Source: a virus. From it: DNA of 25,623 nt. Position numbers and translations under genes: made by a program. Numbering within the stretch: the stretch's first letter is position 1; every line of letters starts with the position of its first letter. A model generated the notes under the pieces. That model saw only the letters and a list, made by a program, of their open reading frames with translations, was not told the origin of the DNA and made no database searches. Where the stretch lies: positions 1-25,623 of the IMG/VR virus record IMGVR_UViG_3300035693_000027; one strand, written 5' to 3'. Of the stretch, positions 3,475-25,118 are shown piece by piece.

Positions 3475-3497
3475 GCACCGGACGATACACGGTCGAG

Positions 3498-3526: not shown

Positions 3527-3561
3527 AGCCGCACAGTGCCTCGCGATACCGCAGATATGGT

Positions 3562-3593: not shown

Positions 3594-3621
3594 CGCCCGC
3601 TCCTGCTGGGTTAGGAGGGGC

Positions 3622-5006: not shown

Positions 5007-5017
5007 TTTGCTGACGA

Positions 5018-5398: not shown

Positions 5399-5443
5399 GG
5401 CTCTCCCCTTTCGTAACGGAGCCGGACCGGACCGTAGCATGTT

Positions 5444-7982: not shown

Positions 7983-8993
7983 CTACTCGAACAGCGCCCG
8001 CATCAGCCGGGTCGTCAGCTCGTCGAGATCGGTGTCCTCGTCGACCGTGAGCAACACCTTCTCGGACTTCGCGACCGGCTCCGGCCCACGCGACGCAGCG
8101 CGCTGTTGTTCGAACTCGACGTACTCACCGGTCCCCGCGTTGTAGGCCGCGAGCTGGTGGTTGTCCCGGGCGTATCGCATCGCTTCGTCCTCGTCTTGGA
8201 TGTTGTGGGAGACGTCCAGGTATAGGCGCCCTCCGTCCACCCATCCTCCCAGGTAGGAGTTCGGCTGTCTCAGATCGTCCCCATGGTCAGTCACGAATCG
8301 ATCGATCTCGTTCTTGATGTTCGTGTGCCAGGGGTTCCCCGGGATCGCTTCCATGGGCTGCTCCGATGCCAGCGACTCGATCGAGACCGACCGCTCCGTA
8401 CCGTACTGCGAGACCATCCAGCCCGTATCCGGCTGGTCCCCGGCCAGCGACAACGAGAACCCGCCGGACCGTAGCGCCGTGTCCCCGAGACCGCCGACCT
8501 CAGCGAACCGGCCGTGCGGATCGCGTGGGTGCAGACGCTCGGTGAAGTCCTTCGAGGCCGCCATCGCGATTACATTCCAGGACGGATACCGTTCAACCAT
8601 GCTCTCGGCCCAGGCCCGTCCCTCCTCGGAAGTAAACGTGCGATGTTGCAGGATCGCATCCGGATGCACCCGGTGATATTCCTCGGCGAGCCGCGTTGCC
8701 GTTCCAGGCTCACGGCTCTCGACCCAGGAAACATCCATCCGTAGCGTTGCCGGATCTCGGTCCAGATGTAACCGACCGATCTCTTGTCCGTCCTGATTGA
8801 ACGCGCGAATCTCCGGAGACTCCCCGTCTCGTTCTATCCTCACGCCGCCCGTCTCTGCAAACCTGCCCTCCGCGTCGCGCGGGTGCAGGTGCTCGGAGAA
8901 GTCCTTGCTCCCGCGCGCTCGCGCGCGAGCCTCGTCCCAGGTTTCGCCCAGGTCGGCGATCGCGGCGGTCTCGGGCTTCAGGATCGAGGTCAT
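7983..8993 (-). CDS. Payload protein with two HPRD motifs, GNAT-like module and an unassigned phage domain
   Basis: A 336-residue protein. A short head (1-29) leads to the first HPRD motif (30-50). Residues 51-142 resemble the GNAT module of the giant polyprotein, sharing DGQEIGRLHLD, EEGRAWAESMV and YPSWNVI, but with a weaker acetyl-CoA loop (REPGTATRL). A second HPRD motif (148-168) separates this from a C-terminal domain (169-336). There, SYLGGWVDGGRLYLDVS (246-262) and ARDNHQLAAYNAGTGEYVE (275-293) form a pattern I associate with phage head-operon accessory proteins of unknown function. ATG 8993 overlaps the preceding stop by 4 bases and has GGAAGG nine bases upstream. It is the last gene of the payload operon. 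Acetyltransferase activity is uncertain given the degenerate loop. Confidence 0.7.
   Translation of the reverse strand: MTSILKPETAAIADLGETWDEARARARGSKDFSEHLHPRDAEGRFAETGGVRIERDGESPEIRAFNQDGQEIGRLHLDRDPATLRMDVSWVESREPGTATRLAEEYHRVHPDAILQHRTFTSEEGRAWAESMVERYPSWNVIAMAASKDFTERLHPRDPHGRFAEVGGLGDTALRSGGFSLSLAGDQPDTGWMVSQYGTERSVSIESLASEQPMEAIPGNPWHTNIKNEIDRFVTDHGDDLRQPNSYLGGWVDGGRLYLDVSHNIQDEDEAMRYARDNHQLAAYNAGTGEYVEFEQQRAASRGPEPVAKSEKVLLTVDEDTDLDELTTRLMRALFE
8490..8552 (-). repeat. HPRD motif, copy 12
   Basis: Encodes LHPRDPHGRFAEVGG with a KDFTER lead (residues 148-168). It lies exactly between the GNAT-like module and the C-terminal domain, showing that the motif marks module borders. Confidence 0.85.
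8844..8906 (-). repeat. HPRD motif, copy 11
   Basis: Encodes KDFSEHLHPRDAEGRFAETGG-type sequence (residues 30-50 of the 336-residue protein), placed just before the GNAT-like module. Confidence 0.85.
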
Positions 8994-9931
8994 CCGAACA
9001 ACCTTCCTTGATTCGGGTCGGGCGTGTCCTGCTCGATCTGGTCGACGATGAGCTGCAGCGCGTCGCGCATGCCGCCGTCGTAGTCATCGATGTCGAACTC
9101 GGGATCCATCACCGTCGTGAACGCCTCTGCGAACGCCTCACCGACCGAGTACCCGGCGTAATCCGAGAGCTGGCTCGTGTTCATCGCGATCGTTTCCTCG
9201 GTGCCGTCACCCAGGATCGCGTCTTTGAACGACTCCGCGAACGCACTGTCGTCCCCGAACTCGTCGTAGCCGATCACACCCATGACGTGGTGGCCGTACT
9301 CGTGCAGCATCGTAGGCGGGAGATCCCCACCACCGACACTGAACCCCGGTGAGGCATCCACCAGCTTGGTCGCAAACTCCGGATCCCCGGCAACCCCGCC
9401 GTAGAGGAAGATCGTGCCCCCGGAATACTGGGCCATGACACCCCTGTCCCGCGGATCATCCCCGACCAGGTCATCAGACCCGATCAGGCGCGAGGCCGCC
9501 ACGATCTCAGGCTCCCCATATGCATCGAAGATCGGCTGCAACCGTGGCTCGGCCAGGAACTCCGCCGCCGCCTGCTCGCACACCGCACGCTGCTTCGGTG
9601 TTACGTCCTCCGGCTTCGCCTCGTCGACATTCATCTTGGCGTAGAAGTCCTCCGGCGAGAGCGGAAACGAATCCTCCGGCGGACCGCCGTGTGCGGCGAG
9701 CAAGCTCCGGTAACGCTCGACACCGCGGGTGAACGTGTCGAACAGATCCCCGAGGTTCGTCGGCGTGTCAAACGGCGCCTCGCCCGCAACCTCGGCGAAC
9801 CGTCCGTGCGAGTCCCGCGGGTGCAACTGCTCCGTGAAGTCCTTCGCGCCCGGCTCGCCGAGGGATGCGATCCACTCGGCGAGGTCGCGGAAGTCCTCGG
9901 GCTTGGCGGGCCGGATCGAGATATCACTCAT
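8990..9931 (-). CDS. Payload protein: HPRD motif plus HExxH metallopeptidase
   Basis: A 313-residue protein. A short leader (MSDISIRPAKPEDF) precedes the HPRD motif at residues 30-50. The remaining 260 residues look like one zinc metallopeptidase domain. TMLHEYGHHVMGV contains HEYGH (210-214), and SVGEAFAEAFTTVMDPEF (262-279) supplies Glu candidates for a third zinc ligand, as in gluzincins. SQYSG-like and FLYGGVAGDPEF segments precede the active site as expected for an upstream beta-sheet. The frame runs open to 10126, but ATG 9931 fits: it overlaps the upstream stop by 8 bases, has a GGGGTG element upstream, and removes an implausible Arg/Ser-rich extension. No signal peptide is present, so it acts in the cytoplasm of the producing or infected cell. 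The peptidase target is unknown. Confidence 0.75.
   Translation of the reverse strand: MSDISIRPAKPEDFRDLAEWIASLGEPGAKDFTEQLHPRDSHGRFAEVAGEAPFDTPTNLGDLFDTFTRGVERYRSLLAAHGGPPEDSFPLSPEDFYAKMNVDEAKPEDVTPKQRAVCEQAAAEFLAEPRLQPIFDAYGEPEIVAASRLIGSDDLVGDDPRDRGVMAQYSGGTIFLYGGVAGDPEFATKLVDASPGFSVGGGDLPPTMLHEYGHHVMGVIGYDEFGDDSAFAESFKDAILGDGTEETIAMNTSQLSDYAGYSVGEAFAEAFTTVMDPEFDIDDYDGGMRDALQLIVDQIEQDTPDPNQGRLFG
9782..9844 (-). repeat. HPRD motif, copy 10
   Basis: Encodes LHPRDSHGRFAEVAG with a KDFTEQ lead (residues 30-50 of the 313-residue peptidase). Confidence 0.85.
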
Positions 9932-10784
9932 GCTGCACCCCGTAGTGCCTGTCGATCGCGTGCCCGACGATGTCGGCGATCTTGCCGTGCTGCCCGGTCG
10001 CGTACTTCCCGAACGCCTGCGCGAGTAGTTCCTCGGGGTTGTCCGCGACGTACTGAGGGTTCCCGACGTAGTCCCCGGTGCTCGCAAACTCGGTGGCGAG
10101 CTGCTTGTGAATCGCCTCGGCATCATTCCCGAACGCTCGACCTATCTCGGCGGAGATGTTCTGCACGAGGTCGGCGACATCCCTCTGTTGCTGGGAGGTT
10201 CTCGCGTTGTACTCCTCCGCGTATCCCGGCGGACGATCGGAGTGTCGGGTGATCGGCGGATCGTTTGCTTTCTCAACCCCGGTCATGTTCAGGAACATTG
10301 CATGCGCGAACTCATGCGCGACGGTGGAAGCCAGTTCGGGATCCTTCCACTTCTCCCCGTACTTCGCGCCGATGTTCGTGAACGCCATCCGCCCCGCAAA
10401 GTCCCACTTTCCCCACGCGCCCTTCAATGTTGTGGCCTTCACCGACGTAATCATCGGGACCACCGCCGGGTACCGTTCTCCGAGATCGTTGAGCGTGTTC
10501 CGCACCGTCGCCTGATCCTCTTCGTCCAACGTGCCGATCGTCATCTTCACACCGGCCATCGGCCCGGCGGAGACCATCAGCCGTGTGTCACCCGTCTCCG
10601 TGAACTGTCCCTCGGCGTCTCGAGGATGCAGGTGCTCGTCGAACGCCTTGGCGCCCGAGCCGAACTTCGCCTCCGCCTCGCGCTGCTCGCGTTCGAGGAT
10701 TGCCTCGACCTCTTCGTCGGTCAGATACTCCGTTGGGTCGTACGCCGGAAGTTTCGTGAAGTCGGTAGGGAGATAGGTCACCAT
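9924..10784 (-). CDS. Payload protein: HPRD motif plus HExxH metallopeptidase, second type
   Basis: A 286-residue protein. The leader (1-45) is acidic and helical (TDEEVEAILEREQREAEAKF), followed by the HPRD motif (46-65). The body carries a zinc-peptidase helix, STVAHEFAHAMF, with HEFAH at 157-161. Downstream, NPEELLAQAFGKYATG (249-264) could give the third ligand and supporting Glu. The sequence around the active site differs from the neighbouring 313-residue peptidase, so the two are not recent duplicates. ATG 10784 overlaps the preceding stop by 7 bases. An in-frame GTG at 10841 exists, but its extension is a low-complexity Gln/Gly run read from the previous gene's Lys-rich tail. No export signal is present. 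Target and timing of action are unknown; delivery with phage DNA is the working idea. Confidence 0.75.
   Translation of the reverse strand: MVTYLPTDFTKLPAYDPTEYLTDEEVEAILEREQREAEAKFGSGAKAFDEHLHPRDAEGQFTETGDTRLMVSAGPMAGVKMTIGTLDEEDQATVRNTLNDLGERYPAVVPMITSVKATTLKGAWGKWDFAGRMAFTNIGAKYGEKWKDPELASTVAHEFAHAMFLNMTGVEKANDPPITRHSDRPPGYAEEYNARTSQQQRDVADLVQNISAEIGRAFGNDAEAIHKQLATEFASTGDYVGNPQYVADNPEELLAQAFGKYATGQHGKIADIVGHAIDRHYGVQHE
10590..10649 (-). repeat. HPRD motif, copy 9
   Basis: Encodes LHPRDAEGQFTETG with a KAFDEH lead (residues 46-65 of the 286-residue peptidase). GRF has become GQF. Confidence 0.8.
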
Positions 10785-11983
10785 TCCAACCAGCTCTTGC
10801 CCTTCTTGGGCTTCTTGACCTTGGCCTTGCCCGTCGGCCACTCCACTCCATCATCCCAGGATATATGCGGGTGTTCCTGGATCTTCTCCCAGAACGCGGC
10901 CTGTGCGACATCGGGCGGCACGTCGTACTCCAGGGCGATCATACGCACCGCCTCCGCCATCGCTACGTACCCAGCACCGAGCACGCGGTTGCCCTTCTTT
11001 ACGGTCCCACCCGTCGAACCAAGGAACGCGATCGCATCAGGTGCCGACACCCCGTAGACCATCTCGACGACCTTGCCCATATGCGTGTCGATCGTGACCT
11101 CGTGCGTCCCGCCTGGATCCATGATGTTGTCGAAGAACGAGCGCGTCTTGTTGTCGTTGAGCACGTCCTCGGGATCGAGCTTGCCCATCATCACGGCCAT
11201 TCCCTTCGCGCCGTTCTGGTTCATGAGCTGGGGCTTCGCCGGTTTCCCCTTCAGCGTCAGCACTGTGTTGTTCCTCGTGTACTCGTCTTTCCACGCCAGG
11301 AACGCCTCCATCGGATCCATGTCGGCGATCACCTGGCCGTCTTCCGTCGTCCCGCGTCCGATGAATCTCGCCATCTCCGAGACGTAACGCTCCTCGCCCT
11401 CGCCAGTCTTCTTGTCCTTCCACACACACTTCGGCGAACAGATCCCGAACGCGGTCGCGATCCGGTCCTTCGAGATCCCGGTCTCGGCGGCAAGATCGGT
11501 CGAGATCTGCGAGGCCGACGGATACCACGACTCGGCGTGGTCGATCGCGTCCTGGTCGACGTATGCGGCCATCTTGTCCCTCAGATCCGTGATGGACACG
11601 CCGTAGTCGTCCATGATCTGAGACCACGTATCGCGTTCATCGGGCGAGAAGTCCTGGATCCGCGACGCGTTCGGCTCAAGGATCCCGGAGACGCCCGCTG
11701 TTTCGGCGAACCGACCATGCGTGTCGCGCGGGTGTTGCGACTCAACGAAGTCCTTGAACGACAGCCCCTTCGGGTTGTGCGCGAGTCCCAGCTCGACGCG
11801 GAGCGTCAGCGGCATCGCCTCGGCGACCGGCAGCGTCAGGAAGTGCTCGAGCGCTGCGGGGCCGCCGATGAACTGCAGGAACTGCCCCATGTCCGTCGGG
11901 TACTCCCACGAGACCGTCTTGATCCAGTCGGCGTTTCGTTGCACACGATCGAGGTAGACGGTCACGGCCATGACCCATCCCAC
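10778..11983 (-). CDS. Payload protein with HPRD motif and endonuclease III-like Asp-Thr-His segment
   Basis: A 401-residue protein. Residues 1-76 form a leader, residues 77-97 the HPRD motif, and about 105-375 one domain with a Lys-rich tail (KVKKPKKGK). Landmarks are HAESWYPSA (149-157), FGICSPKCVWKD (179-190), NDNKTRSFFDNI (276-287) and EVTIDTHMGKVV (295-306). The ITIDTH-type segment recalls the catalytic VDTH of HhH-GPD DNA glycosylases such as endonuclease III, and the order of elements is compatible. The hairpin Gly motif is not evident, so this is a weak inference. Similar proteins of unknown function (I recall a DUF7178-like family, unverified) occur in actinophages. GTG 11983 is chosen because GGAGG lies 7 bases upstream, inside the end of the polyprotein gene; the overlap is 22 bases. 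ATG 11971 is the alternative. Confidence 0.7.
   Translation of the reverse strand: MGWVMAVTVYLDRVQRNADWIKTVSWEYPTDMGQFLQFIGGPAALEHFLTLPVAEAMPLTLRVELGLAHNPKGLSFKDFVESQHPRDTHGRFAETAGVSGILEPNASRIQDFSPDERDTWSQIMDDYGVSITDLRDKMAAYVDQDAIDHAESWYPSASQISTDLAAETGISKDRIATAFGICSPKCVWKDKKTGEGEERYVSEMARFIGRGTTEDGQVIADMDPMEAFLAWKDEYTRNNTVLTLKGKPAKPQLMNQNGAKGMAVMMGKLDPEDVLNDNKTRSFFDNIMDPGGTHEVTIDTHMGKVVEMVYGVSAPDAIAFLGSTGGTVKKGNRVLGAGYVAMAEAVRMIALEYDVPPDVAQAAFWEKIQEHPHISWDDGVEWPTGKAKVKKPKKGKSWLEW
11693..11755 (-). repeat. HPRD motif, copy 8
   Basis: Encodes QHPRDTHGRFAETAG with a KDFVES lead (residues 77-97 of the 401-residue protein). Confidence 0.85.
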
Positions 11984-14900
11984 GGAGAATCCTCCGGATT
12001 AGTAACAGGCGTAACGCGCGCCTCGACAGTTCCACCCGCCACCAGCATCTCGGTCTCCTCCAAACACCCCGGACCGGTGACCGGTATCGAGAAGATCCGA
12101 TCAGCGGGAACTGTCGCTTCGATGATGTACGCCGTTGTTACGTAGTCGCCTCTTCCGGCGTGTGCAAACTTGTACGCCGTCGTGTCGCTCGTCGAGAACG
12201 ACGACAGTGGATTCAAACCTACCTCACGAACCTGCGGATCGGGAGAGTTAGATCCAAACGGATCCTCCGGCCCTTGGTCCGGGTCAAACTCCACACCGCG
12301 GAAGGATGCCACCTCGGTGATTCCACGATCAGCGAGGAACTTCTGCGTGTCGCTGTAGACCTGATCGACATACGCCTTCACTACACGAGAATGCGCCATC
12401 TCGTAGAGACGGTCGATCGTTGAAGCATCGGAGGTGGCGGGATCCAGTCCGAGTATCGCTCCCTCATCCGTCGACCAGGTATCGGCGGGGGATCCCTCGA
12501 AGGCGTCGTAGATGTAGCCCGCGGCGCTGTCCGGGACGCCGAGGTGCTCACCGGCCGCGATCTGCACGGCCCAGGACGTCTGGGAATCATCCGTTGCCGA
12601 TTGCATCCAGGCATCCTGCATCTTCGCCGCAGCCTGACGCCCACCAACCTCCTCGAGCGTCATGCCCTCCTCCAGGCTCAGGTGATCCCACTGGTACCCG
12701 ACTGGATCACCCGCCGTGAGACCGTTCGCATCGAGGTACATGCCCGGAACGAGATCCTGATTCTGTGCTTCCTGCGGATCGTCCGCGCGAATGACGCGCT
12801 GTCCGATCGCACCGAGCTGGGACTTCAGCGCCGGATCCTTCTTCGCGCGCTCGGCGAGCGCCTTGCCGATGTGCACCATGTTCGCGATCTTGGCCGCGAT
12901 TGCAGGATCGTCGGAGAACGGAAGCGTCCGCGCATCCTGAATCAGCGCCTCCCGCAGATCCGAGCCACCCTGTTCGGCGCGATCCGACAGCGTCGGGCTG
13001 AGCGGGGTGAGACCGCCGCCACCTCCGCCTCCGCCTGTGCCAGCTCCGCCCGTCTCTGCCCAACGCCCGAGCCGATCGCGGAGCTGGTCGGGATTGAACT
13101 TCGCGAACGCGCGCGCGAGCGCCTCCGCCTCGGGGTTAGGGTGCGTCCGCTGGAACGTATCGACCTCATCCCAGTACCGTTCCCACACTTCCCGTGGTGC
13201 GGTCTGCTCGGGCTGCGTCGGGAGCAACGCCTGGTCTTCCTCCGAGTAGTAGGTCCGCCAGATGTTCGTCGGATCGTTCGTCATCGACGGGACGGTCTCG
13301 GTCCCAATCACCACGGCCTGCTCGCGATCGAACACGATGAGCTGGTCGCCGCCGGTTGTCGGATCCTCGTTGCCGCCGGAGTGCGCGAAGATCGAGACGC
13401 TGTCATAGCCCGCGGCTTTCAACAGCGTCGTCGTGTCCTCGGCGCTATCAGCGGCACGAAACTCGCTGAGATCCTCGTCATAGATCACCGCATCCGGATC
13501 GATACCGGCCGCCTCGAGCGCCGCCTCGCGGAACTCGCCCGCGCGCGCGAAGTCAGAGGTCACGTTTCCGCGCCAGTCCAACACCAGCGGGTTCTGCGCG
13601 ACCACAACGGTCGAGACCGCGGCGTTTCCCTTGTACTCGTAGAACGCTGCGGTGTCCGGATCGACCGCGAAGTACCGTCCGTACTCGTGCATCGATTGTG
13701 CCGCCGGATTGAACCCGGTGCCCTTGATGCCGTCGACGTTGCTCATCTCGGTCATGTGCACCACGGTCTGCGGGATCTTCGTCCCCGCCGCCTCGGCCCA
13801 GGCGTGGCCCTCCTCCGGCGTCATGTCCGGCTTCCACGTCTTGCGGTAGTCGTCGGCGGCCGTTAATGCCGGGCGGATATCAACGATGGCATCCGACGGC
13901 AGTCCCTCCCAGCCATCGGGGGCGGAACCGTGCGCGGGCTGGATCAGGAACTGATCGTGACCGGAGCCGCCGATCTCATGCTGCGCGCGCTGCTCGCTCA
14001 ACCACTCCTGGGACACCGTGACCCGCAACACCTGCGCGTTCGGCCCCGCTTTCATGATGCCGTAGATCCGTGCGGCCTCCGGCGTCGTCGCCAGCCCGAC
14101 CGCGTTGAAGTCATCCGGCAGGATCTCCCGTCCGCCCACGATCGAGGCCGCGGCGACCGGCGACGTCGAGTGGTACATGACGAAGTCACCCTCCGGCGTT
14201 CGCTCCGGCGGCGTGTCGCCCTCACGCGGCCCCTCTCCCTTGCGCTCGTCGAACGGGAACCCGTCCCAGCCGTGTCCCGCCGTCTCCGCGAAACGCCCGC
14301 GCTCGTCTCGAGGGTGCAGGTGTTCGGTGAACTCCTTGCGCGCGCGGTGTTCGAGGATCGCTTTCGCCAGCTCCATCACGGTGATGTACTGCGGCGGGAT
14401 GTCGCCGTTGACCACAATCGTGCTCGGACTCATCCCGCCTTCGGTCTCGGCCTCGAAGTCGAACAGTCCGATGGCGCTCGCGAGCGCTTCTTCGAGGTTC
14501 GCGTTGGAAACATCCGGCTCCTGGCTGACGAAGGGCTTGAGTCCGTCGGCCGCCATCGCCGCGGTGTCGATCACCAGCACCTGGCCGTAGTAATATTCGG
14601 CCTCATCCGGCTCCGTGCTTGTGTAGACCGCCGCACCCTCGTACCGGTTGGACAACCCGCGCGTCTCCGAGCGCATCTGCAAACCCTCGGACATGATCTC
14701 GGGAATGCGGTCGGGATCCGTGCCGTGATACAGCACGTCGGGCCTCTGCCAGAACTGATCGCTGAACTCCTGATCGTAGTTGGGGTAGTAGTCCGACGCG
14801 TCTTGTTCGCCGACCCAGTCATAGGCGTTGTGCGTCTCAGAGAACGAGTCGTCCCCGCTCCACTCGATCACCGTCGGCTCGCCGCCGTCGACGGGCTGAT

Positions 14901-17900
14901 GCAGATACACCGCGTCAACGCCCGGCGCATCGAACTCGACCTTGATCGCACCGAGCTTCGCGATCGCGGCGCCGACCTCCTCCGGTGTGTCCAGCCCATT
15001 GTCGAGCAGCTCGAGCAGCTCGGCGGGATCATCCGGCAGATCTACCGGGATCGGAACAGCACTGTTCCCGGCCGAGTAACGCTCCGCGACCGTACCCTCC
15101 TGCTCGGCGTGCCCGAAGTACCGGATCTCGACGGGGACGTTCTCCATCCCGAGTTCAACCGCAGCATCGCGCCGGTGATTGCCCTCGCTGATCTTCGGCT
15201 GCTCGCCGTGATCGACCGTGATGAAGATCGGCTGCTTGATGCCGTTGGCCGCGATGTCCTGTTTGAACTTCTCCCAGTCCTCGCCCTGGATGTTGCGATG
15301 GTCGCCGGGCACCTCGCCCATGACACCGCGGAGGTACCGGATCGCCGCCGTCGGGATGTGTCCCTCCTCGATCGCAGTGATGTGTTGCGTGTTACCGACC
15401 TGGCCCTCGTAGTCGGTCCTCGTGAGCGACGAACCGGTCGTATCCGACTCCGACCTGATGACATTCCAGTTCGGGTACTCCCTCACCATCGCTTGTGCCC
15501 ATGCGCGCCCCTCCGCTGTGAAAGGATCGCGGTGTACGAGTAATACATCGGGAGAGTGTTCATGGAGCGCCACCGCCAGTTGAGTGGCTACACCCTGCCC
15601 ACGTAACCTCTCAACAACATCAACCGACTCCACAACAGCTTCGTTCTGGGTACCGACATTCAACCGCAACCGACCAACAACTTCTCCGTCGGAGGCCCGT
15701 GCTACCACGATCGCACGTCCCAGTGCCTCCTCGTACTGCACCCGAAGAGCCGAACCGCCGGTCTCAGCGAACCGTCCGTGCTCGTCTCGAGGGTGCAGAC
15801 GCTCGGTGAACTCGCCCGCCTTCTCGCCGGAGTCGGGCGCCTGCGCGGCGATGAGCATGTGCAGGCACTCGGCGTCCATCCCGATCGTCGCGCCGTCTTC
15901 GGGGTGATCGTCTATCCACGCGCGGACGACGGCGAGCGCACGCTCGGCATCGTCCACGCTCCCGAGCGAAGACATGATGATCGCCTTCACATCATCGGCC
16001 GTCTGCGGCGCGCGGGACTTCTCGTTGGCGGCGGTGGTGTATCCCATCTCCGACCCATGGCCCGTGCCGATGAACACAACGTGCTCGCCGGAAGCCGCGG
16101 TCGCCTTGTCGAGCTTGGCTTGTCGTTCGGGCAGCGGTGTCTGTAGCAGATCGCGTGCCCAGTCGAGCCGATCCGTCCAGGTTTCCTCTTCCTGCGCCGG
16201 ATACTCGAATGGTGGGTTGTACCTCGACAGAAGCAGAGCCTGGTTCACGCCGGTCACATACGCGTTGTAGCTCATGTAGCCGGGCGGAAACTGACCACCG
16301 CTGTAGGGAGACGGCGCGTTCGGACCGTACGCCTTCACCGCCATGAACGCCTCGCGATACGCCTCGGCGACGCCCTCCTCCAGCGGGATGTTGTGGCCCT
16401 TGTAATCCCCCGAATACAGCGTGTGTGACAGCCCGTGCGCCAGCTCGTGGCTCAGGACACCCTGACCGTCCTCGACGTCCTTCGGGTTCAGCACACGGTC
16501 AGTGCCCTCGGGGATGTCCCGCAGGACAGAGTCCCCGATCGCGATCGAGCAGTTCCAGTCCTTGTACGCGGCGACACCGTCTTCCATCGTGTCGAACTTG
16601 ATCGTGCCGCGCCACCGGTTCTTCAGGCCGGAGTCCTTCTCCATCTCGTGGTTCTGGTTGACCGAGTATTCGACCGCGGCGCGCAATCCAGCGATGCCCG
16701 TCACGTCGTCCTGCCAGGACGCCGGATACTCGATCGCATAGACCCGGCCCGATTCGTCGTCGGTGTTGCTGGCGTACACCGCATGCTCCGTCTCGGTACG
16801 CATGTACACCTCTCGTGCGGTCGTGAGACCTCGCACACCTGCAGCGATCCAACCCGGGGGTGTCTCCCACGTTCCCGCGTGCTGCGTTGGTGCGATGTCG
16901 GCGAGCACCCGCCCGTCGTTGAGCCGGATCGTCGCGGTGTCATCGCCCCGGTCGGTGCCGATCCGCATCAGCGTGCCGACGTCGCCGTCGCTCGTCACAA
17001 CGAGATCGCCCTCGTGGAAGTCACCCGCCTGCGCGCCCGCGAGACGCACGACTCCCTGCATCTCCTCTGGTGAGAGGATCCCGACCCGCTCCGGCCCGGA
17101 GTCGGTGTCCTCGAAGACCGCGTTGCCCAGCAGATACCGGGGCACACCGTTCGGGTTACCGGCTGCTGGAGCGCGGAACTCGACCGGAGACATGCCTTCA
17201 GGTAGAACCGGGAGAGCATCCAACGATGCAAGCTGGTCGGCCTGGATCAGTCTGTCTTCGTTGTCGTTGGTGAACCCGTAGCGCCCCGGCTGCTCCTTCG
17301 GGACGAACAGATGGATCCCGTCGTTGTCGACGTGGTCGATCGTGGCGACGATGTACTCAGGTGATCCGGGGCGGGACGGTTCCGACGGACCTTGGTAGTA
17401 CATGGGCACGCTGATGTAGTGCACCTCGTCCCCGACGTGTAGCCCGCGCGCGGCCAGCTCGGCCTCGTGCGCCTGGATCATCCCGGTGGCTTCAGGCTCG
17501 AGCACATCCGCGCCGTCCACCCCCGGCATGAACTGCCCGCCGAGGCCGCCCGGTGTTCCGCGGGGATAGCGCGGGTGCAGGCTCGGAGTGAAGTCCTTGC
17601 CGTTCTTGATCTTCTCGATTGCGCGCGCGTAGTTCGAGTTGTCGAGCGCGGCCCAGTCGTACTCGCCCTTGCGGACATCGTTGGCATATTCCGACAGGTA
17701 CCGGTAGGCCGCGTGCCACGGCTCGTGCACCGCGATGATCTGTTCCGGTGACACGTCTCCGTAGAACGTAACGTCGGACGCACGAGCTTCGAGATCCTCC
17801 GGCTTCTCCCAGTGTCCGATGTCGAGCTGATCGGGCGGCGCCCAGAACTCGACCACCGCGAACTGCGAATCCATCAGCCCGCCATCGGTGACTCGCTGAG

Positions 17901-19656
17901 CCTGCTGGGAGCGAACCCCGGAGCTAGCCCAGATCTGGTTCGGTTCGCCGTAGGACTCCCCGCGCGCGGTCGACCGCGTCAATCCGTGCTCGCTGATCGC
18001 TTCCGCGTTCTGCAGCGGCGTGATGTGAAACAGGCGCACGGTCCCCGGCGGTATCGGCGTCTCGCCCGGTAGCGGCGGGACCGCCGCTCCGGCTAAAGGG
18101 GCACCACCGCCCCCCGAATCCGTGAACCGTCCGTGTTCGTCGCGCGGGTGCAAGCTCGGCGTGAAGTCGCCCGCCTTGCCCTCGTTGTGCGCGTGCTCGG
18201 CCGTCGACATGCCGGTGGCCTCTTGGTGCCGGTTCTGGCAGAAACCCTTCGCGTCCTCGACGCCCATGTGCGCCGATGCGATCGCGACACACTGCGCCCA
18301 ATCGCCGGGAGATCCCCACGCGATCGCGCCGCCCGCGCCCTCGTTGAACCAACGGATCAGCGAGGATGCGTTTCCGGCGTTCCCGGCCTTCGCCCAGTTC
18401 CCGTAGACCGCGATCTGGCGAACGTCGGACGGGTTCAGCTCGTCCTCGCCAACCGTCATCGCCGTGGCCCCGACGTGAAGGTTGCCACTGTGGGACGGGC
18501 CGCTCCGCATGATCGCGAGAACGTGCTCGCCCTCATACTTCCGCGCGTCGCCCAGCCGCGTCTCGGCGTCGTCGAACCGCGTCCAGTGCACCATGTCGGT
18601 CGGCGTGTCCGGCCGTCCGGCCGTCTCACCGGGTCGGCCGGTCCACTGTCCCTCGGCGTCGCGCGGCTGGGTCTCGGAGAACTTCGCGAGCACCTCGAGC
18701 AGCTCGGGCGTGTCGATCGCGGCGGCGTAGAGGTGTGGGTCGTGAAACGCCTTCTTCGTCACGTCCGCGGCCGGGATCCCCATCTCCTCGGTCCAGAAGT
18801 TCGCCAGCGTCAGCGCCTCGCCGATGTCGGTGTCCACCACGATCACCGGCATGTCGATCGTCTCGCCGGTCCGGTAGGACTCCGCGACGTAGGCGGCCCA
18901 GCGGTGGTGGCCGTCGATGACGTAGTTGTCCCGCGTGACGTAGATCGCTCCCTTCGGGTCGTTGACGTCGATCTTGCCCGCGGCGACCGCGCCCGCGATC
19001 CCCGCGACCTTCCCGCCGTTCAGCTCCGACTGGGAGGCGCGCAGGTGCGAGGCGTCGATCGTCGTGTTGGTCGTCGCGCGTCCCGAGGATGCGAGGAACT
19101 CCCCGAACTGCCGGGACAGGTCGACCTCCCCCTTCTTGTTCCGCGGCATCTTGTCGGCCTCGGAGCCGGGGACCGGATCCTTCGTCGAGAGCTGCGGCAT
19201 CTGCACCCGCTCGATCGGCGTACCGTCGGAGCGCTTGACCTCGTCCTGGCAGAACAGGTTCGTCCCAGGGACCGAGACGTTGCACAGGTCGTAGTTCGGT
19301 GCCTTCTCGCCCTTGTCCTCGGCCTCCTTGACGATGTCTCGGAGCTTGTCCAGCAGTGTCGCGACCTCATCCGGCTGGTTCAGGGTGACGTGTCCGCCGT
19401 TCTCGAGCACGCGCGCCGCGCGTTCGATGTCGCCCCCGCACGGCACCGGATCATCCGGCGTCCCCTCGTGCTGTCCGTACAGGATCTTGCGCTCGTCGGC
19501 GAGCCGTAGCCGGGTCTCCTCCGTGTCACCGCCACCGCCACCGCCGGGCGTACTCGTGAACTCCCCGGAGTGCGGATCGCGCGGATGCAGGCGTTCGTCG
19601 AAGACCTTCGACCGAAGGACCGCCAGCTCGAGGTCACCGATATTCGTGTCGGGCAC
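11962..19656 (-). CDS. Giant multi-enzyme head-operon polyprotein (ParB-like, ART, peptidase, GNAT modules)
   Basis: An uninterrupted 2564-residue frame. GTG 19656 lies 2 bases after the protease stop and follows AGAGG; the longer open frame only mirrors the protease gene. Seven HPRD motifs (near residues 18, 325, 496, 687, 1281, 1774 and 2186) divide it into seven segments. The modules seen are ParB-like (198-300), a Cys/His module (343-495), ART-like (538-652), paired SH3/KOW-like beta stretches (about 730-960) and a zinc peptidase (985-1180). Then come GNAT (1303-1400), ParB-like 2 (1430-1515), and ART-like modules at 1638-1762, 1820-1935, 1960-2118 and 2400-2555. Poly-Gly runs follow motifs 1, 3 and 7. 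No signal peptide, membrane segment or long coiled coil is present, which argues against a tape measure. It lies between the head protease and further motif-bearing enzymes, so packaging into the head and delivery to the host is the leading idea. Enzyme activities are inferred from short motifs; the C-terminal ART is the best supported. Confidence 0.85.
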   Translation of the reverse strand: MPDTNIGDLELAVLRSKVFDERLHPRDPHSGEFTSTPGGGGGGDTEETRLRLADERKILYGQHEGTPDDPVPCGGDIERAARVLENGGHVTLNQPDEVATLLDKLRDIVKEAEDKGEKAPNYDLCNVSVPGTNLFCQDEVKRSDGTPIERVQMPQLSTKDPVPGSEADKMPRNKKGEVDLSRQFGEFLASSGRATTNTTIDASHLRASQSELNGGKVAGIAGAVAAGKIDVNDPKGAIYVTRDNYVIDGHHRWAAYVAESYRTGETIDMPVIVVDTDIGEALTLANFWTEEMGIPAADVTKKAFHDPHLYAAAIDTPELLEVLAKFSETQPRDAEGQWTGRPGETAGRPDTPTDMVHWTRFDDAETRLGDARKYEGEHVLAIMRSGPSHSGNLHVGATAMTVGEDELNPSDVRQIAVYGNWAKAGNAGNASSLIRWFNEGAGGAIAWGSPGDWAQCVAIASAHMGVEDAKGFCQNRHQEATGMSTAEHAHNEGKAGDFTPSLHPRDEHGRFTDSGGGGAPLAGAAVPPLPGETPIPPGTVRLFHITPLQNAEAISEHGLTRSTARGESYGEPNQIWASSGVRSQQAQRVTDGGLMDSQFAVVEFWAPPDQLDIGHWEKPEDLEARASDVTFYGDVSPEQIIAVHEPWHAAYRYLSEYANDVRKGEYDWAALDNSNYARAIEKIKNGKDFTPSLHPRYPRGTPGGLGGQFMPGVDGADVLEPEATGMIQAHEAELAARGLHVGDEVHYISVPMYYQGPSEPSRPGSPEYIVATIDHVDNDGIHLFVPKEQPGRYGFTNDNEDRLIQADQLASLDALPVLPEGMSPVEFRAPAAGNPNGVPRYLLGNAVFEDTDSGPERVGILSPEEMQGVVRLAGAQAGDFHEGDLVVTSDGDVGTLMRIGTDRGDDTATIRLNDGRVLADIAPTQHAGTWETPPGWIAAGVRGLTTAREVYMRTETEHAVYASNTDDESGRVYAIEYPASWQDDVTGIAGLRAAVEYSVNQNHEMEKDSGLKNRWRGTIKFDTMEDGVAAYKDWNCSIAIGDSVLRDIPEGTDRVLNPKDVEDGQGVLSHELAHGLSHTLYSGDYKGHNIPLEEGVAEAYREAFMAVKAYGPNAPSPYSGGQFPPGYMSYNAYVTGVNQALLLSRYNPPFEYPAQEEETWTDRLDWARDLLQTPLPERQAKLDKATAASGEHVVFIGTGHGSEMGYTTAANEKSRAPQTADDVKAIIMSSLGSVDDAERALAVVRAWIDDHPEDGATIGMDAECLHMLIAAQAPDSGEKAGEFTERLHPRDEHGRFAETGGSALRVQYEEALGRAIVVARASDGEVVGRLRLNVGTQNEAVVESVDVVERLRGQGVATQLAVALHEHSPDVLLVHRDPFTAEGRAWAQAMVREYPNWNVIRSESDTTGSSLTRTDYEGQVGNTQHITAIEEGHIPTAAIRYLRGVMGEVPGDHRNIQGEDWEKFKQDIAANGIKQPIFITVDHGEQPKISEGNHRRDAAVELGMENVPVEIRYFGHAEQEGTVAERYSAGNSAVPIPVDLPDDPAELLELLDNGLDTPEEVGAAIAKLGAIKVEFDAPGVDAVYLHQPVDGGEPTVIEWSGDDSFSETHNAYDWVGEQDASDYYPNYDQEFSDQFWQRPDVLYHGTDPDRIPEIMSEGLQMRSETRGLSNRYEGAAVYTSTEPDEAEYYYGQVLVIDTAAMAADGLKPFVSQEPDVSNANLEEALASAIGLFDFEAETEGGMSPSTIVVNGDIPPQYITVMELAKAILEHRARKEFTEHLHPRDERGRFAETAGHGWDGFPFDERKGEGPREGDTPPERTPEGDFVMYHSTSPVAAASIVGGREILPDDFNAVGLATTPEAARIYGIMKAGPNAQVLRVTVSQEWLSEQRAQHEIGGSGHDQFLIQPAHGSAPDGWEGLPSDAIVDIRPALTAADDYRKTWKPDMTPEEGHAWAEAAGTKIPQTVVHMTEMSNVDGIKGTGFNPAAQSMHEYGRYFAVDPDTAAFYEYKGNAAVSTVVVAQNPLVLDWRGNVTSDFARAGEFREAALEAAGIDPDAVIYDEDLSEFRAADSAEDTTTLLKAAGYDSVSIFAHSGGNEDPTTGGDQLIVFDREQAVVIGTETVPSMTNDPTNIWRTYYSEEDQALLPTQPEQTAPREVWERYWDEVDTFQRTHPNPEAEALARAFAKFNPDQLRDRLGRWAETGGAGTGGGGGGGGLTPLSPTLSDRAEQGGSDLREALIQDARTLPFSDDPAIAAKIANMVHIGKALAERAKKDPALKSQLGAIGQRVIRADDPQEAQNQDLVPGMYLDANGLTAGDPVGYQWDHLSLEEGMTLEEVGGRQAAAKMQDAWMQSATDDSQTSWAVQIAAGEHLGVPDSAAGYIYDAFEGSPADTWSTDEGAILGLDPATSDASTIDRLYEMAHSRVVKAYVDQVYSDTQKFLADRGITEVASFRGVEFDPDQGPEDPFGSNSPDPQVREVGLNPLSSFSTSDTTAYKFAHAGRGDYVTTAYIIEATVPADRIFSIPVTGPGCLEETEMLVAGGTVEARVTPVTNPEDSPWDGSWP
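11991..11995 (-). promoter_or_regulatory. Shine-Dalgarno deciding the GTG start at 11983
   Basis: GGAGG on the minus strand lies 7 bases before GTG 11983, inside the last codons of the polyprotein gene. The ATG at 11971 has no comparable site. Confidence 0.7.
11992..12459 (-). other. Polyprotein module: R-S-E class ADP-ribosyltransferase, C-terminal
   Basis: Residues 2400-2555. The full R-S-E signature is present in order: Arg2453 in SFRGVEF, Ser-Thr-Ser at 2488-2490 in SSFSTSDTTAYKFA, and Glu2534-Thr-Glu2536 in LEETEMLV. ExE favours arginine-directed transfer, as in C3-like/iota-type and T4 Alt/ModA enzymes. Upstream helices (2210-2400) may form its helical companion. Confidence 0.85.
13045..13101 (-). 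repeat. HPRD motif, copy 7 (divergent)
   Basis: Encodes KFNPDQLRDRLGRWAETGG (residues 2186-2204). HPRD is reduced to LRD, but GRWAETGG is kept. Eight consecutive Gly codons (13012-13035) follow. Confidence 0.75.
13303..13779 (-). other. Polyprotein module: ADP-ribosyltransferase-like domain 4
   Basis: Residues 1960-2118. QTVVHMTEMSNVDGIKGTGF (His1967), GRYFAVDPDTAAFYEYKG, and a final GGDQLIVFDREQAVVIG (Gln2105 at the usual catalytic strand) resemble phage head ART or ADPRT-like domains. Glu is replaced by Gln at the late position, so activity is doubtful. Confidence 0.5.
13852..14199 (-). other. Polyprotein module: ADP-ribosyltransferase-like domain 3
   Basis: Residues 1820-1935. DFVMYHSTSPVAAASIV resembles the ART opening (His1829); FNAVGLATTPEAARIYG fits the second core strand and helix, and QFLIQPAHGSAPDG the late strand. 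This is a fold-level guess. Confidence 0.4.
14275..14337 (-). repeat. HPRD motif, copy 6
   Basis: Encodes LHPRDERGRFAETAG with a KEFTEH lead (residues 1774-1794). Confidence 0.85.
14371..14745 (-). other. Polyprotein module: ADP-ribosyltransferase-like domain 2
   Basis: Residues 1638-1762. RPDVLYHGTDPDRIPEIM then SEGL shows the H-Y-type ART opening with His1644; GAAVYTSTEPDEAEYYYG supplies the second-strand Tyr region. No certain catalytic Glu is identified. Confidence 0.6.
15112..15369 (-). other. Polyprotein module: ParB/sulfiredoxin-like domain 2
   Basis: Residues 1430-1515. FKQDIAANGIKQPIFITVD followed by KISEGNHRRDAAVELG (E1491-G-N-H-R-R) is the ParB-N pattern, and VPVEIRYFG ends the fold. 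It diverges strongly from domain 1, so it is not a recent duplicate. Confidence 0.75.
15457..15750 (-). other. Polyprotein module: GNAT acetyltransferase-like
   Basis: Residues 1303-1400. DGEVVGRLRL then VDVVERLRGQGVATQL, with R1352-G-Q-G-V-A, is the acetyl-CoA pyrophosphate loop. It ends EGRAWAQAMV and YPNWNVI, as in the paralogous module of the 336-residue protein. Confidence 0.7.
15754..15816 (-). repeat. HPRD motif, copy 5
   Basis: Encodes LHPRDEHGRFAETGG with a GEFTER lead (residues 1281-1301). This is the cleanest copy and serves as the consensus. Confidence 0.9.
16117..16704 (-). other. Polyprotein module: HExxH zinc metallopeptidase
   Basis: Residues 985-1180. GVLSHELAHGLSHTLY places HELAH at 1070-1074. 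EEGVAEAYREAF provides Glu1098 24 residues after the last His, the gluzincin-like arrangement. It could process other payload parts or a host target. Confidence 0.75.
17521..17598 (-). repeat. HPRD motif, copy 4 (divergent)
   Basis: Encodes KDFTPSLHPRYPRGTPGG and continues LGGQFMPG (residues 687-712). Asp has become Tyr and a Gly-Pro insertion breaks the GRF part. Confidence 0.7.
17701..18045 (-). other. Polyprotein module: ADP-ribosyltransferase-like domain 1
   Basis: Residues 538-652. TVRLFHITPLQNAEAI followed by SEHGL is the usual first strand, His and helix of DarT/PARP-like (H-class) ART folds. SPEQIIAVHEPWH closes the domain. The catalytic Glu assignment is uncertain. Confidence 0.5.
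18109..18171 (-). repeat. HPRD motif, copy 3
   Basis: Encodes LHPRDEHGRFTDSGG with a GDFTPS lead (residues 496-516). Confidence 0.85.
18172..18630 (-). other. Polyprotein module: unassigned Cys/His domain
   Basis: Residues 343-495. The end contains GDWAQCVAIASAHMG and GFCQNRHQEATG, with Cys456, His463, Cys473 and His477 spaced like a small metal site. I have seen similar Cys/His segments at the ends of phage capsid-operon proteins. The function is unknown. Confidence 0.5.
18637..18684 (-). repeat. HPRD motif, copy 2 (divergent)
   Basis: Encodes KFSETQPRDAEGQWTG (residues 325-340). Leu-His has become Gln and Phe has become Trp. Confidence 0.7.
18757..19065 (-). other. Polyprotein module: ParB/sulfiredoxin-like domain 1
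   Basis: Residues 198-300. ASHLRASQSEL opens the fold and YVIDGHHRWAAY, with D248-G-H-H-R252, is the phosphate/nucleotide-binding signature of ParB-N/Srx-like domains. Members include nucleases, CTPases and kinases; which activity applies here is not readable. Confidence 0.7.
19543..19605 (-). repeat. HPRD motif, copy 1
   Basis: Encodes LHPRDPHSGEFTSTPG with a VFDER lead (residues 18-38), at the extreme N-terminus of the polyprotein. Six consecutive Gly codons (19528-19545) follow. Confidence 0.8.
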
Positions 19657-19658
19657 GG

Positions 19659-21203
19659 CTACCTCTTGATCTCGAGGTTCGCGATGATGTCGTTGAACTC
19701 GGTCAGCTCGGCGTCGAGCTTCTTCTCCTGGGCGACCTCGCCGGTACCGTTCATGTCCGAGGCCCACTTGTCGACCGCACCGGCCAGCGCATCCTTCAGC
19801 GCGGCAGCGGCCTTGGCGCCGACCACCCGTCCGGACTTCGTGGCGGCCCGCTTCTCGTTGGCGTAGAGCGCGCGCACCTGCGCCATCGCGGCGGCCTCGG
19901 TCGGATGACACGCGACCTGGGAGCCGTCGGCGTCCTTGATCACGCAGTATTCGTCCCCGTGCTTCTCGACGTGCCAGGGCTTCCCGAGGGACTTCTCCTC
20001 CGGGGGCTTCCAGCCGCGCTTGCGCGCCTCGGCACGGATCGCCTCGCCGAGGCGGGCGCGTTCGATCGGCTTCAGGAACTTGTCGGCCTCCTTGGGGATG
20101 TTGATCTTGCCCGACTCGTGGAAGTTGTCCCGCATCAGATGTGCGAGCGCGATCACGTCTTCCTTGGGCATCCCAGCCTCCCGCAGCGCCTTGCGAAGAT
20201 CGTTCAGCGTGCCTTCCCCGAGCGGGTGGGTCTTGTCCTTCTCCAGCTCGGCGTCGCTGGGCTTGGGCTTGTTGCTACCGCCATCGCCCGCGGTCCACTC
20301 ACCACCCGCTGCGCGCGGGTGCTGCTCCTCGACGTATGCCTTCTCCGAACCCGAGTGCGCGTTGAGGTGGGACTCGGCCGCGCCCTTGGACTTCAGATCC
20401 GGAGCGCCGCCGCGACCTCCATGGAGGGCACCAAGGGCCGCGGCGACGCCTGCCGGATTCGCCTCCGCACCGGGAGAGGAATGATGCGGCAGCGCCCAGT
20501 GCGCGGCGGTATCGGGGTCCGAGTCGTTCGCGCGCTCGAACGCGATCTTGCGGAAGTCCGCGGCCGAGGAGCAGGAGCGCATCGCCGCGGCGCCGTCCCA
20601 GGACGCCTTCTCGATCGCAGCCTTCAGCTCGATGTCGGCGGCACGGTCGAGCCGGAGCTTCATCCGCCGTTCCTCCTCGATGTCCCCGTTGGACTTCGTC
20701 CCGAGCGAGACCGTCGCGGGGTTCGCGCCCTTCAACGTCGGGCCGATCTCGATGATGTCGACCGTCGTCAGCTCGTTCGCACCATCCTTGCCTCGGCGCT
20801 CGCCGCCCGCCGGGATGTCGTAGCTGAACGAGAACTCCTTGACGCGGCGCTCGGCCAGCAGGTCATACACCTGCTTGGCGAAGGGCTTGTGCACGTCGAG
20901 GTGGCCCTTGACGAGCAGCCCGCCGGGAACCTGTCCGGCCTTGCCCCGGATCTCGCGCACGTCCGCGGGATCGACGTAGCCGATGTGTGCGAACGGATCG
21001 CCCCAATCGTGTGACCACAGGACCGGGATGGGATCCCCCGCCGTCTTCCACTTCTCGATCGACTTCTCGAACGCGCCCGGCATCACCCGATCGTTCTGCA
21101 GGTCGACATTGCCGAACACCGACACAACCGCCTCGAACGTGCCCTCGCCCTCGTCCGGACGCGCCTTGAACGAGCTGATGTCGTAGGACTTGTGAAGCGT
21201 CAT
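19659..21203 (-). CDS. HK97-type prohead protease with long C-terminal extension
   Basis: A 514-residue protein, roughly 2.5 times a minimal prohead protease. Residues 5-170 are the S78-type protease: GTFEAVVSVFGNVD, DRVMPGAF, VLWSHDWGDPFAHIG (His65) and VKEFSFSYDI (Ser125). NPATVSL closes the domain. It cleaves capsid delta domains and other head proteins during maturation. The extension holds a WDGAAAMRSC segment (202-211), an HPRD-like motif (288-309), a helical domain (318-402), a Cys/His segment with KPWHVEKHGDEYCVIKD and VACHPTEAAA (408-439), and a final charged helix that may serve as scaffold. The motif it shares with the downstream payload proteins suggests a common route into the head. 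ATG 21203 has an AGAGGAG Shine-Dalgarno. No separate scaffold gene is seen. Confidence 0.88.
   Translation of the reverse strand: MTLHKSYDISSFKARPDEGEGTFEAVVSVFGNVDLQNDRVMPGAFEKSIEKWKTAGDPIPVLWSHDWGDPFAHIGYVDPADVREIRGKAGQVPGGLLVKGHLDVHKPFAKQVYDLLAERRVKEFSFSYDIPAGGERRGKDGANELTTVDIIEIGPTLKGANPATVSLGTKSNGDIEEERRMKLRLDRAADIELKAAIEKASWDGAAAMRSCSSAADFRKIAFERANDSDPDTAAHWALPHHSSPGAEANPAGVAAALGALHGGRGGAPDLKSKGAAESHLNAHSGSEKAYVEEQHPRAAGGEWTAGDGGSNKPKPSDAELEKDKTHPLGEGTLNDLRKALREAGMPKEDVIALAHLMRDNFHESGKINIPKEADKFLKPIERARLGEAIRAEARKRGWKPPEEKSLGKPWHVEKHGDEYCVIKDADGSQVACHPTEAAAMAQVRALYANEKRAATKSGRVVGAKAAAALKDALAGAVDKWASDMNGTGEVAQEKKLDAELTEFNDIIANLEIKR
20277..20342 (-). repeat. HPRD-like motif inside the protease, copy 13
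   Basis: Encodes KAYVEEQHPRAAGGEWTAGD (residues 288-307). HPR is kept, Asp has become Ala and GRF has become GEW; a Gly/Ser-rich stretch follows as in the other copies. Confidence 0.7.
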
Positions 21204-21231: not shown

Positions 21232-23331
21232 TCATAGGCTCACCGACATCACGCACGAACAGTTCGCGGTCTCGTCGGCGTTCCCGGTCGCACCGTCACC
21301 GGGGAAACGCAGACCATTGGCGAAGGTCTCCTCGAACTCGATCGACGTACCGTCCAGAGCGGCGTGAGACGCTCTGGGATTATCGGAAGTGACCAACCAC
21401 GTCTTCTTCACCGCCAGGTCGTTCTGGTGCGCGGCCTCCCCCGCGGCCCAGTTCATCGCGAAGGTCGTGTTCGATCGGGACAGCTCGTCGATCCGCCCCT
21501 CCCCGAACACCGCGTCCGCGTAGTCCTCGAGCGGTGTGTTCGAGGTTCCGTAGGTCTGCACCAGGTTCATCGTCGAGTTGTTGATCGCCTCGGACTTCGC
21601 CTGGGCCGACACCTGGAGGTACTCCGAGGTCCGCTCGGTCGACCAATCGGCGTCCAAACTCTTAGCCGTGTTCTTGCCGACGTGCTCAACGGTCTGCAGC
21701 GACACACCGAACAGATCGGCGGCGAGTTCCTTGATCCACCGTTTCGATGCGAGGTCGGTCTTGCCGCCCTTGAGCGCGTTCAGTTGGCGAGTGAAGAACT
21801 TCGCGAACATCGAAGCATGCCGCTCCTCGAACCGTGCTCGAGTCTCGCGCATGAACGCGATGAGGTCGCTGGCGGCTTTCGTCCGCGCCATCTTGAGTTC
21901 GTGGCCCGCCAATATCGCTTCGACCGAGTCGCCCTTCGCATCCGGTGACAGCACCTCCTTGATCTGTGCCTGGCTCAACGACGCCGTGCCGGGTGGCAGA
22001 GCTGGCGCGTTCCCACCTCCCGGCAACGGCGTCGGGGTCGTTCCGGCCGGATTCAGCCCCTGCGCGGGCGTATCGACCGGTGACTGCGGCGCTCCCTGTG
22101 GTCCGCCGCCGCGCATCGAGTTCATCGGGATGAAGATCAGGTCGCCGTCGGTGATCGGCGGCAGGTTCAGCCGCGAGCGCGCCTCGTTGACGGTGACCAC
22201 CGGTCCGCCCGCCGTCGTCGCCATCACCGCGGCCTGCTGCTCGAAGTTGCCGCGCATCTTGGCGTCCAAGTTGAACTCGAGATAGAAGGTCTTCCGCGTC
22301 GCCTTGCTCAGCTCGAACTGCGGCAGGAGCTGCGCCTCGATCTCGTTCTCGACCCGCGTGAGGTAGGGCGGCAGCGTCGAGGTGTAGAAGTAGCTCAGCG
22401 TGTCGGCGCCCGGGTCCGCGCCCGATGTTTGTGCGAGCACCTTCGCCGCCGGGTAGTGGTAGGCCGCGGCGACCTCGGTGCGGTTCAGTTTGCGCGCGTT
22501 GAGATATTCCATCTCCTTTGGCGACCACTCGGTGTCCTTGAAGCTCATACCCGGTTCCAACATGAACGGCGTGTAGGAGTTCTGCGCGCCCGACAGCGCG
22601 ATCTCGGCGTCGGTGAGGAAACTCTCGCGCGCTTCGTCCGACATCCTCGGCGCATCAACCGCCTGCTCGATGACGCCGTCCTTGCGAAGCGCGTTTGCCC
22701 AACGGTGCTCGCGGTCCTGCGAGGCGGCGTAGTCCTCGGCGAGGGTCCGGCGAAGGGTCTCGAGCGGCGCGATGTGGCCGTGGTTGATCGCGGGGTCGAA
22801 CCCCCAGAAGACCACCAGCTCTGACGGGGGGATACGTTCCCCCGTCGCCATGGCTCGCCACTCGGTCACCCGCCCGGTCCGCGGATCGTACTGAGGCGTG
22901 ATCGCGCTCGGAGGAATACGTACGAGCGCGGCCGGAGGGTGACCGACCATCCGCCAGAACGCGATGTCGAAGATCCCGATGTCGGCGAACAGCGCAAACC
23001 AGAACCGGTAGGGACTCATCAGCGGCTCGGGTTCGCCCAGCAGCTCCATCATCGGGTGGTCGACCTCGATGCGCGCGTCGGCGAGCAGGGGTCCGCGCGG
23101 ATCCTTCATGTACATCTTGATCGACAGCTCCGCGGCCTCGCGTGCGAGGTCGGAGACAACGGTCCGCACGTTCGGCTGCGACGCGTAGAGTTGCTCGTAG
23201 GATCCGGCCAGCCCATAGAGACGCAGCAGGTGGGTAACCGGGGGCGGAAACTCGGTGATCCGAAGACCATCCGGGGACAGTCGAGCCGACTTCCGGCCCC
23301 CGCGGATGATCCGGGTCAGTGGATTCTCCAT
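21232..23331 (-). CDS. Portal protein fused to a MuF-like minor head domain
   Basis: A 699-residue fusion. Residues 1 to about 420 match the HK97-type portal: NVRTVVSDLAREAAELSIKMY, LIPP-like surface strands, an ISPLE-like GHIAPLETLRRTLAED, WSPKEMEYLNARKLNR, and a C-terminal VNEARSRLNLPPI. A Gly/Pro-rich linker (about 415-460) joins a helical region and a C-terminal MuF/SPP1 gp7-like domain. That domain has KKTWLVTSDNPRASHAALDG and FANGLRFPGDG, and it ends in NCSCVM. The portal dodecamer forms the DNA entry vertex; the MuF domain is a minor head component that enters with the DNA in some phages. ATG 23331 has a GAGGAG element a few bases upstream. It lies 54 bases after terL and 28 bases before the protease. 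Portal/MuF fusions are known but less common than separate genes. Confidence 0.85.
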   Translation of the reverse strand: MENPLTRIIRGGRKSARLSPDGLRITEFPPPVTHLLRLYGLAGSYEQLYASQPNVRTVVSDLAREAAELSIKMYMKDPRGPLLADARIEVDHPMMELLGEPEPLMSPYRFWFALFADIGIFDIAFWRMVGHPPAALVRIPPSAITPQYDPRTGRVTEWRAMATGERIPPSELVVFWGFDPAINHGHIAPLETLRRTLAEDYAASQDREHRWANALRKDGVIEQAVDAPRMSDEARESFLTDAEIALSGAQNSYTPFMLEPGMSFKDTEWSPKEMEYLNARKLNRTEVAAAYHYPAAKVLAQTSGADPGADTLSYFYTSTLPPYLTRVENEIEAQLLPQFELSKATRKTFYLEFNLDAKMRGNFEQQAAVMATTAGGPVVTVNEARSRLNLPPITDGDLIFIPMNSMRGGGPQGAPQSPVDTPAQGLNPAGTTPTPLPGGGNAPALPPGTASLSQAQIKEVLSPDAKGDSVEAILAGHELKMARTKAASDLIAFMRETRARFEERHASMFAKFFTRQLNALKGGKTDLASKRWIKELAADLFGVSLQTVEHVGKNTAKSLDADWSTERTSEYLQVSAQAKSEAINNSTMNLVQTYGTSNTPLEDYADAVFGEGRIDELSRSNTTFAMNWAAGEAAHQNDLAVKKTWLVTSDNPRASHAALDGTSIEFEETFANGLRFPGDGATGNADETANCSCVMSVSL

Positions 23332-25116: not shown

Positions 25117-25118
25117 GA

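Follow-up and report, generated by a model that had tools for sequence, protein, structure and literature searches.

A recurrent HPRD..GRF peptide in front of effector modules in the head operons of tailed viruses, a candidate virion-loading tag

The window, that is, the whole stretch of DNA analysed here, is the entire IMG/VR record IMGVR_UViG_3300035693_000027 (25,623 bases), which may be a fragment of its virus, and it carries on its minus strand a tailed-phage head operon in whose proteins a short peptide with the core HPRD..GRF, hereafter the tag, recurs. The operon runs from TerS and TerL through a portal-MuF fusion and an S78 prohead protease with a long extension to the cargo, namely a giant polyprotein and four more cargo-like genes, followed by three secreted-looking genes and the HK97 capsid protein. 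The main genes are as follows.

23386..25218, minus strand: terminase large subunit (phrog_19179/phrog_9, E 4e-81; open reading frame (ORF) as called, true start probably downstream)
21232..23331, minus strand: portal-MuF fusion protein, without tag (phrog_2662 portal, E 7e-108; head morphogenesis part at 528-698)
19659..21203, minus strand: S78 prohead protease, long C-terminal extension with a degenerate tag (PF04586 at 15-166, E 3e-15; phrog_3244)
11962..19656, minus strand: polyvalent polyprotein of 2,564 amino acids, seven tag-led modules (Pfam matches)
10778..11983, minus strand: tagged DUF7178 protein (PF23802, E 2e-15)
9924..10841, minus strand: tagged zinc-metalloprotease-like protein with HEFAH (weak PF12725/PF10026 matches; HExxH in the translation)
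8990..10126, minus strand: tagged zinc-metalloprotease-like protein with HEYGH (read from the translation, no Pfam match; true start probably downstream of the first ATG)
7983..8993, minus strand: two-tag protein, its first module a homologue of the GNAT-like one behind tag 5
3622..4869, minus strand: HK97-fold major capsid protein, without tag (phrog_10, E 9e-42)

In the polyprotein, which most likely starts at GTG 19656 with a Shine-Dalgarno-like AGAGG and has its first tag 23 amino acids from that N-terminus, Pfam comparison gave ParB-like (ParBc_2-like), ART/Tpt1-like, GNAT, ParB_N, HExxH and DRAT-like modules, several of the matches being sub-threshold. The initial annotation had claimed thirteen copies of the motif in 8490-20342, seven in the polyprotein, five in the next four genes and a degenerate one in the protease extension. 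All thirteen are present, all on the minus strand and divided in just this way.

20295..20321, minus strand: degenerate tag HPRAAGGEW, protease extension
19558..19590, minus strand: tag 1, LHPRDPHSGEF, polyprotein
18643..18669, minus strand: tag 2, QPRDAEGQW, polyprotein, degenerate
18124..18153, minus strand: tag 3, LHPRDEHGRF, polyprotein
17530..17580, minus strand: tag 4, LHPRYPRGTPGGLGGQF, polyprotein, expanded and degenerate
15769..15798, minus strand: tag 5, LHPRDEHGRF, polyprotein
14290..14319, minus strand: tag 6, LHPRDERGRF, polyprotein
13060..13086, minus strand: tag 7, QLRDRLGRW, polyprotein, degenerate
11708..11734, minus strand: tag 8, HPRDTHGRF, DUF7178 protein
10602..10628, minus strand: tag 9, HPRDAEGQF, HEFAH protein
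9797..9826, minus strand: tag 10, LHPRDSHGRF, HEYGH protein
8859..8888, minus strand: tag 11, LHPRDAEGRF, two-tag protein
8505..8534, minus strand: tag 12, LHPRDPHGRF, two-tag protein

Most of these copies agree well with HPRD..GRF, though the GRF part is slightly altered in some, and three polyprotein copies are clearly degenerate; the exact pattern gives seven matches on the coding strand, none on the other strand and none when reversed. Residues agree at 65% of positions among the eight full copies. Codons for the same residue are identical in 0.556 of pairs of window copies as compared with 0.519 +/- 0.039 expected from codon usage, third-position identity being 0.49. This chance level of codon identity indicates that the window copies are not recent DNA duplicates: selection acts on the tag peptide, and the tag DNA is no repeat. 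The annotation's remark that the proteins share little outside the motif needs correction on one point, since the modules behind the tags at 15798 and 8888 are 45% identical over 79 amino acids (E 4e-16). Zinc-metalloprotease-like HExxH modules recur as well among the tagged proteins of the window.

A logo of 135 non-redundant tags gives, roughly, the consensus [K/A]x[W/F][D/N][E/P]xxHPR[D/G]xxG[R/K]FxxGG, Gly/Ser-rich after the core, where the invariance of HPR..G.F arises by construction from a search that demanded it. For the aromatic residue at -5, on which the first scan set no condition, 69 of 109 HPRD..GRF ORFs with at least 150 amino acids have W or F. AlphaFold 2 modelling of a 40-residue tag alignment predicts a turn-like core (predicted local distance difference test, pLDDT, about 85 at residues 11-20) with low-confidence flanks. 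Profile matches to PDB sequences, one to Cyclin-Y and one to a phage 7-7-1 baseplate protein in which the upstream motif residues are missing, were rejected as chance.

Only three contigs related to the window through its portal were found, and two of these are the same phage. In a relative whose portal is 62% identical (L131), the protease extension (2481-3722) has KHGTHDQSEHGNWADGGGGG where the window has its degenerate tag, and the next gene (3726-4628) opens with EDQPRDWHGRFGEG followed by a different module; KHGTHDQSEHGNWADGGGGG may represent another class of tag of this kind. The HDQSxHG variant had no tblastn match in named phages.

Exact HPRD..GRF codons were found in at least 118 stretches in a scan of IMG/VR, the tag being commonest in uncultivated viruses, and the strict pattern W[DN]...HPR[DG]..GRF in only 21 stretches of 257 Gb (gigabases) of bacterial and archaeal genomes, Streptomyces contigs accounting for over half of these stretches. 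A loose pattern gave at least 81 matches in 50 tag-bearing IMG/VR records as against one for the reversed pattern and one in 50 random records, and the reversed motif had no tblastn match. The tag is carried by roughly ten cultured or named virus lineages, among them Streptomyces phage Gilgamesh (gp48, 4,624 amino acids), the archaeal virus HHTV-1 (gp13), the Gordonia phages Sixama, GodonK, Phendrix, Boopy and JKSyngboy (KHKRD variant), Xanthomonas PhiXhv-5/7, Pseudomonas Orimi/Orisa, Rhizobium RHph_N28_2, Faecalibacterium Brigit and a Helicobacter prophage. The statement, in the initial annotation, that such strings occur in other phage head proteins was right. On the Amycolatopsis sp. FU40 plasmid NZ_CP091379 (L140 11998-12567), a 189-amino-acid protein starts with MLAWNEADHPRGADGRFIAKGGG, followed by a hydrophobic segment.

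The position of the tag relative to head genes was assessed in those 33 of the 50 tag records that have a recognisable portal or MuF gene; single TerL (phrog_9) matches were too few to serve as anchors for distances. A tag lies within 3 kilobases (kb) of a portal or MuF gene in 28 of the 33 records as compared with 9.9 expected, the median distance being 519 bases against about 7.4 kb at random, so that the clustering in head operons proposed as a check of the motif is indeed observed. Within each of the 50 records all tags are on one strand, and in the cultured viruses examined the tagged gene stands amid terminase, portal, MuF, protease and capsid genes. MuF is present in 29 of the 50 tag records and in 9 of 50 random ones (p = 7e-5), and among records with a phrog_12 portal in 11 of 18 tag-bearing and 2 of 14 random ones (p = 0.012). 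In two tag-bearing records (those of L087 and L177) the portal matches span an in-frame TAG (G027:16576-17877 and G037:59359-60474), which could be recoding, a sequencing error or a sign of a pseudogene.

A Pfam census of 90 non-redundant tagged ORFs gave ADP-ribosyltransferase (8), zeta toxin (6), MuF (4) and portals, together with LPD3, LPD13, PBECR1/2, ART-PolyVal, ParB_N, 2'-5' RNA ligase and S-adenosylmethionine (SAM) lyase; the proteases were S78 and DUF2213, and no capsid family was found among the 90, the window's own major capsid protein being likewise without tag. In proteins with both parts recognisable, the structural domain comes first, then the tag, then the effector. The architectures include portal-tag-RelA/SpoT (L195), portal-tag-LPD3 (Helicobacter prophage), MuF-tag followed by an unknown part (L182) and tag-ART (L168); MuF-tag fusions occur in the relatives L182 and L056, and other multi-tag proteins hold two to four copies (L203, L039, L076). 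Clustering at E 1e-3 of what follows 135 tags gave 111 clusters, of which 101 have a single member: the tag stays constant and the cargo varies. None of 72 complete tagged ORFs has a tag at its C-terminus, 43 residues or more lying beyond the point where the last tag begins (10th percentile 149), and the first tag lies within 60 amino acids of the start in 54 of 99 ORFs with a defined start, many contigs being fragments and ORF starts having been assigned mechanically. Tags stand ahead of modules, not behind them.

One module type, a cluster of nine, immediately follows the tag, whether in portal fusions, in MuF fusions or in free-standing ORFs; the members named are L056, L065, L088, L092, L108, L110, L185 and the tag 1 module of the window, and the window copy has only a weak ParB-like match. 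In Rhizobium phage RHph_N28_2 (L138, about 4993-5468), the tag opens an ORF in another frame that overlaps the end of the annotated portal, and the PBECR-like sequence seen by eye after this tag is not so annotated in the record.

The analysis shows the tag itself, its conservation at the protein level, its location in head operons, the type of cargo and the N-terminal polarity. On the strength of these sequence features the motif is interpreted, with moderate confidence, as a portable virion-loading (cargo) tag placed before each effector module of proteins that would be packed in the head and injected together with the DNA; incorporation, a docking partner and ejection are what we infer from it. 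During prohead assembly the tag would dock the module that it precedes to an interior partner shared by the cargo, with the portal/MuF vertex as the most plausible site, and any domain placed behind the tag would become cargo; cargo genes may have been fused into polyproteins, each module keeping its own tag, and also to portals, MuF proteins and proteases. More tentatively, this one peptide may be a common loading and/or ejection signal recognised at the portal/MuF vertex of bacterial and archaeal tailed viruses, in which case the injected effectors of uncultivated viruses could be listed by a search for it. Of the three roles considered in the initial annotation, a sorting tag for the head interior fits best; the hits are concentrated in head operons and in virion-effector proteins.

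Several observations weigh against a virion-loading role. The Amycolatopsis plasmid tag adjoins conjugation genes (relaxase, TraM-like), outside any phage head, and is left unexplained by a head-only reading. No MuF match is present in 21 of the 50 tag records, the enrichment of MuF comes partly from two clades, without which the two p values become 0.03 and 0.09, and the co-occurrence analysis identified no single receptor gene common to all tag-bearing viruses. Since the MuF signal is clade-biased, docking at the portal/MuF vertex is a lead and not a result. Portal-tag-effector fusions, moreover, would seem to have no need of a loading tag, being attached to the head already.

The second role, a maturation cleavage site, would have the prohead protease cut at or beside each copy, thereby splitting the polyprotein and freeing effectors from leaders, portals and MuF; it is possible but not supported by the analysis, and is considered unlikely. 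The copies do sit between modules and after short leaders, tags in portal fusions would be accounted for, and a maturation-type protease is encoded in the window (S78) and in several tag phages (DUF2213 in PhiXhv-5, Orimi01 and RHph_N28_2), a Brigit protein also matching a home-made protease profile. In addition, the second position after GRF is most often E or D (39%), loosely like Glu-ending sites. Prohead-protease cleavage sites include LxE of T4 and the HK97 gp4 sites. Other examples are AXE in SPN3US (PMC10052503) and E120/S121 in the P1 capsid protein (PMC9024508). Characterised sites span one to three residues, whereas the tag has a core of 9-14 residues with a conserved upstream aromatic, and this long core is predicted to form a compact turn. 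Furthermore, the untagged capsid protein of the window would be the main substrate, and in the Helicobacter prophage, which carries the tag, no DUF2213 protease is recognisable, though this prophage looks decayed.

A somewhat lower probability is given to an ejection or translocation signal, by which the tag would engage the portal or tail channel so that the module exits with the DNA, loading being left to other determinants. The strict N-terminal polarity, the presence of the tag on portal-fused effectors and the MuF association would all be consistent with such a role, but the internal copies of the 2,564-amino-acid chain would not be at a leading end unless the chain is cut. The third role proposed in the initial annotation, a linker of repeated DNA promoting module exchange by homologous recombination, is very improbable, for although the tag is followed by shuffled modules and relatives differ in their tagged genes, the copies are conserved only as protein, with no DNA identity in the window beyond the needs of the peptide and synonymous codons at random usage, and across very different genomes it is the peptide that stays conserved.

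Between the cargo and capsid genes of the window, three secreted-looking genes (5018-7601, minus strand) encode RTX calcium-binding repeats, a CAP domain and a fusion of GH99-like and calcineurin-like phosphoesterase parts. After the capsid gene (1-3534, minus strand), translations read by eye resemble the sugar-nucleotide enzymes GDP-mannose dehydratase and GDP-fucose synthase and, in a further ORF, a glycosyltransferase.

To our knowledge, only a few models (T4, P1, giant phages) have revealed how tailed viruses select the proteins that they pack and inject, and the signal is a different one in each. If the virion-loading reading is true, unknown injected effectors, including anti-defence and host-takeover domains of uncultivated viruses, could be read straight from sequence, and a simple handle on cargo loading would be available in phages of Gordonia, Streptomyces and haloarchaea. 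A non-exhaustive literature search on the motif string found no earlier description, and no published virion proteomics was found for any tagged phage.

Compared with known systems, the tag resembles prohead-protease sites in being a repeated peptide in head proteins of protease-bearing phages, but is longer and much more conserved, and the capsid protein of the window lacks it. A head-associated MuF domain is likewise combined with variable C-terminal toxins in the MuF polymorphic toxins (Jamet et al. 2017, PMC5576092), in whose available text the word 'motif' is absent; here, in contrast, a conserved peptide separates structural domain from effector, most tagged proteins are without MuF, and the MuF domain of the window sits in its untagged portal protein. 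The polyvalent proteins of phages and conjugative elements (Iyer et al. 2017, PMC5512222) are similar too: they combine several domains, such as ART, ParB, metallopeptidase, PBECR and LPD, are encoded near portal and terminase and are predicted to be packaged. Correspondingly, the window polyprotein joins at least two distinct effector-type domains in one polypeptide, with TerL, portal-MuF and protease upstream and the capsid gene downstream; nothing tag-like was found in that paper, where the motif passages seen are unrelated and the term HPR is absent. With the capsid-targeting sequences of T4 and P1 the tag shares a place at or near the cargo N-terminus and the form of a short peptide, which in those phages brings otherwise unrelated proteins into the head to be injected. 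In P1 DarB, a giant effector protein, the N-terminal 30 residues suffice to carry TetR-mCherry into P1 heads, and the P1 Dar N-termini have no common consensus (PMC9024508). No HPRD..GRF tag was found in the P1 proteins examined (DarB, DarA, DdrB, DdrA and Ulx). By this analogy the tag is best read as working like the T4 and P1 capsid-targeting sequences while differing from the P1 signal in sequence, and what sets it apart is that one sequence is common to many proteins and viruses and is repeated inside polyproteins.
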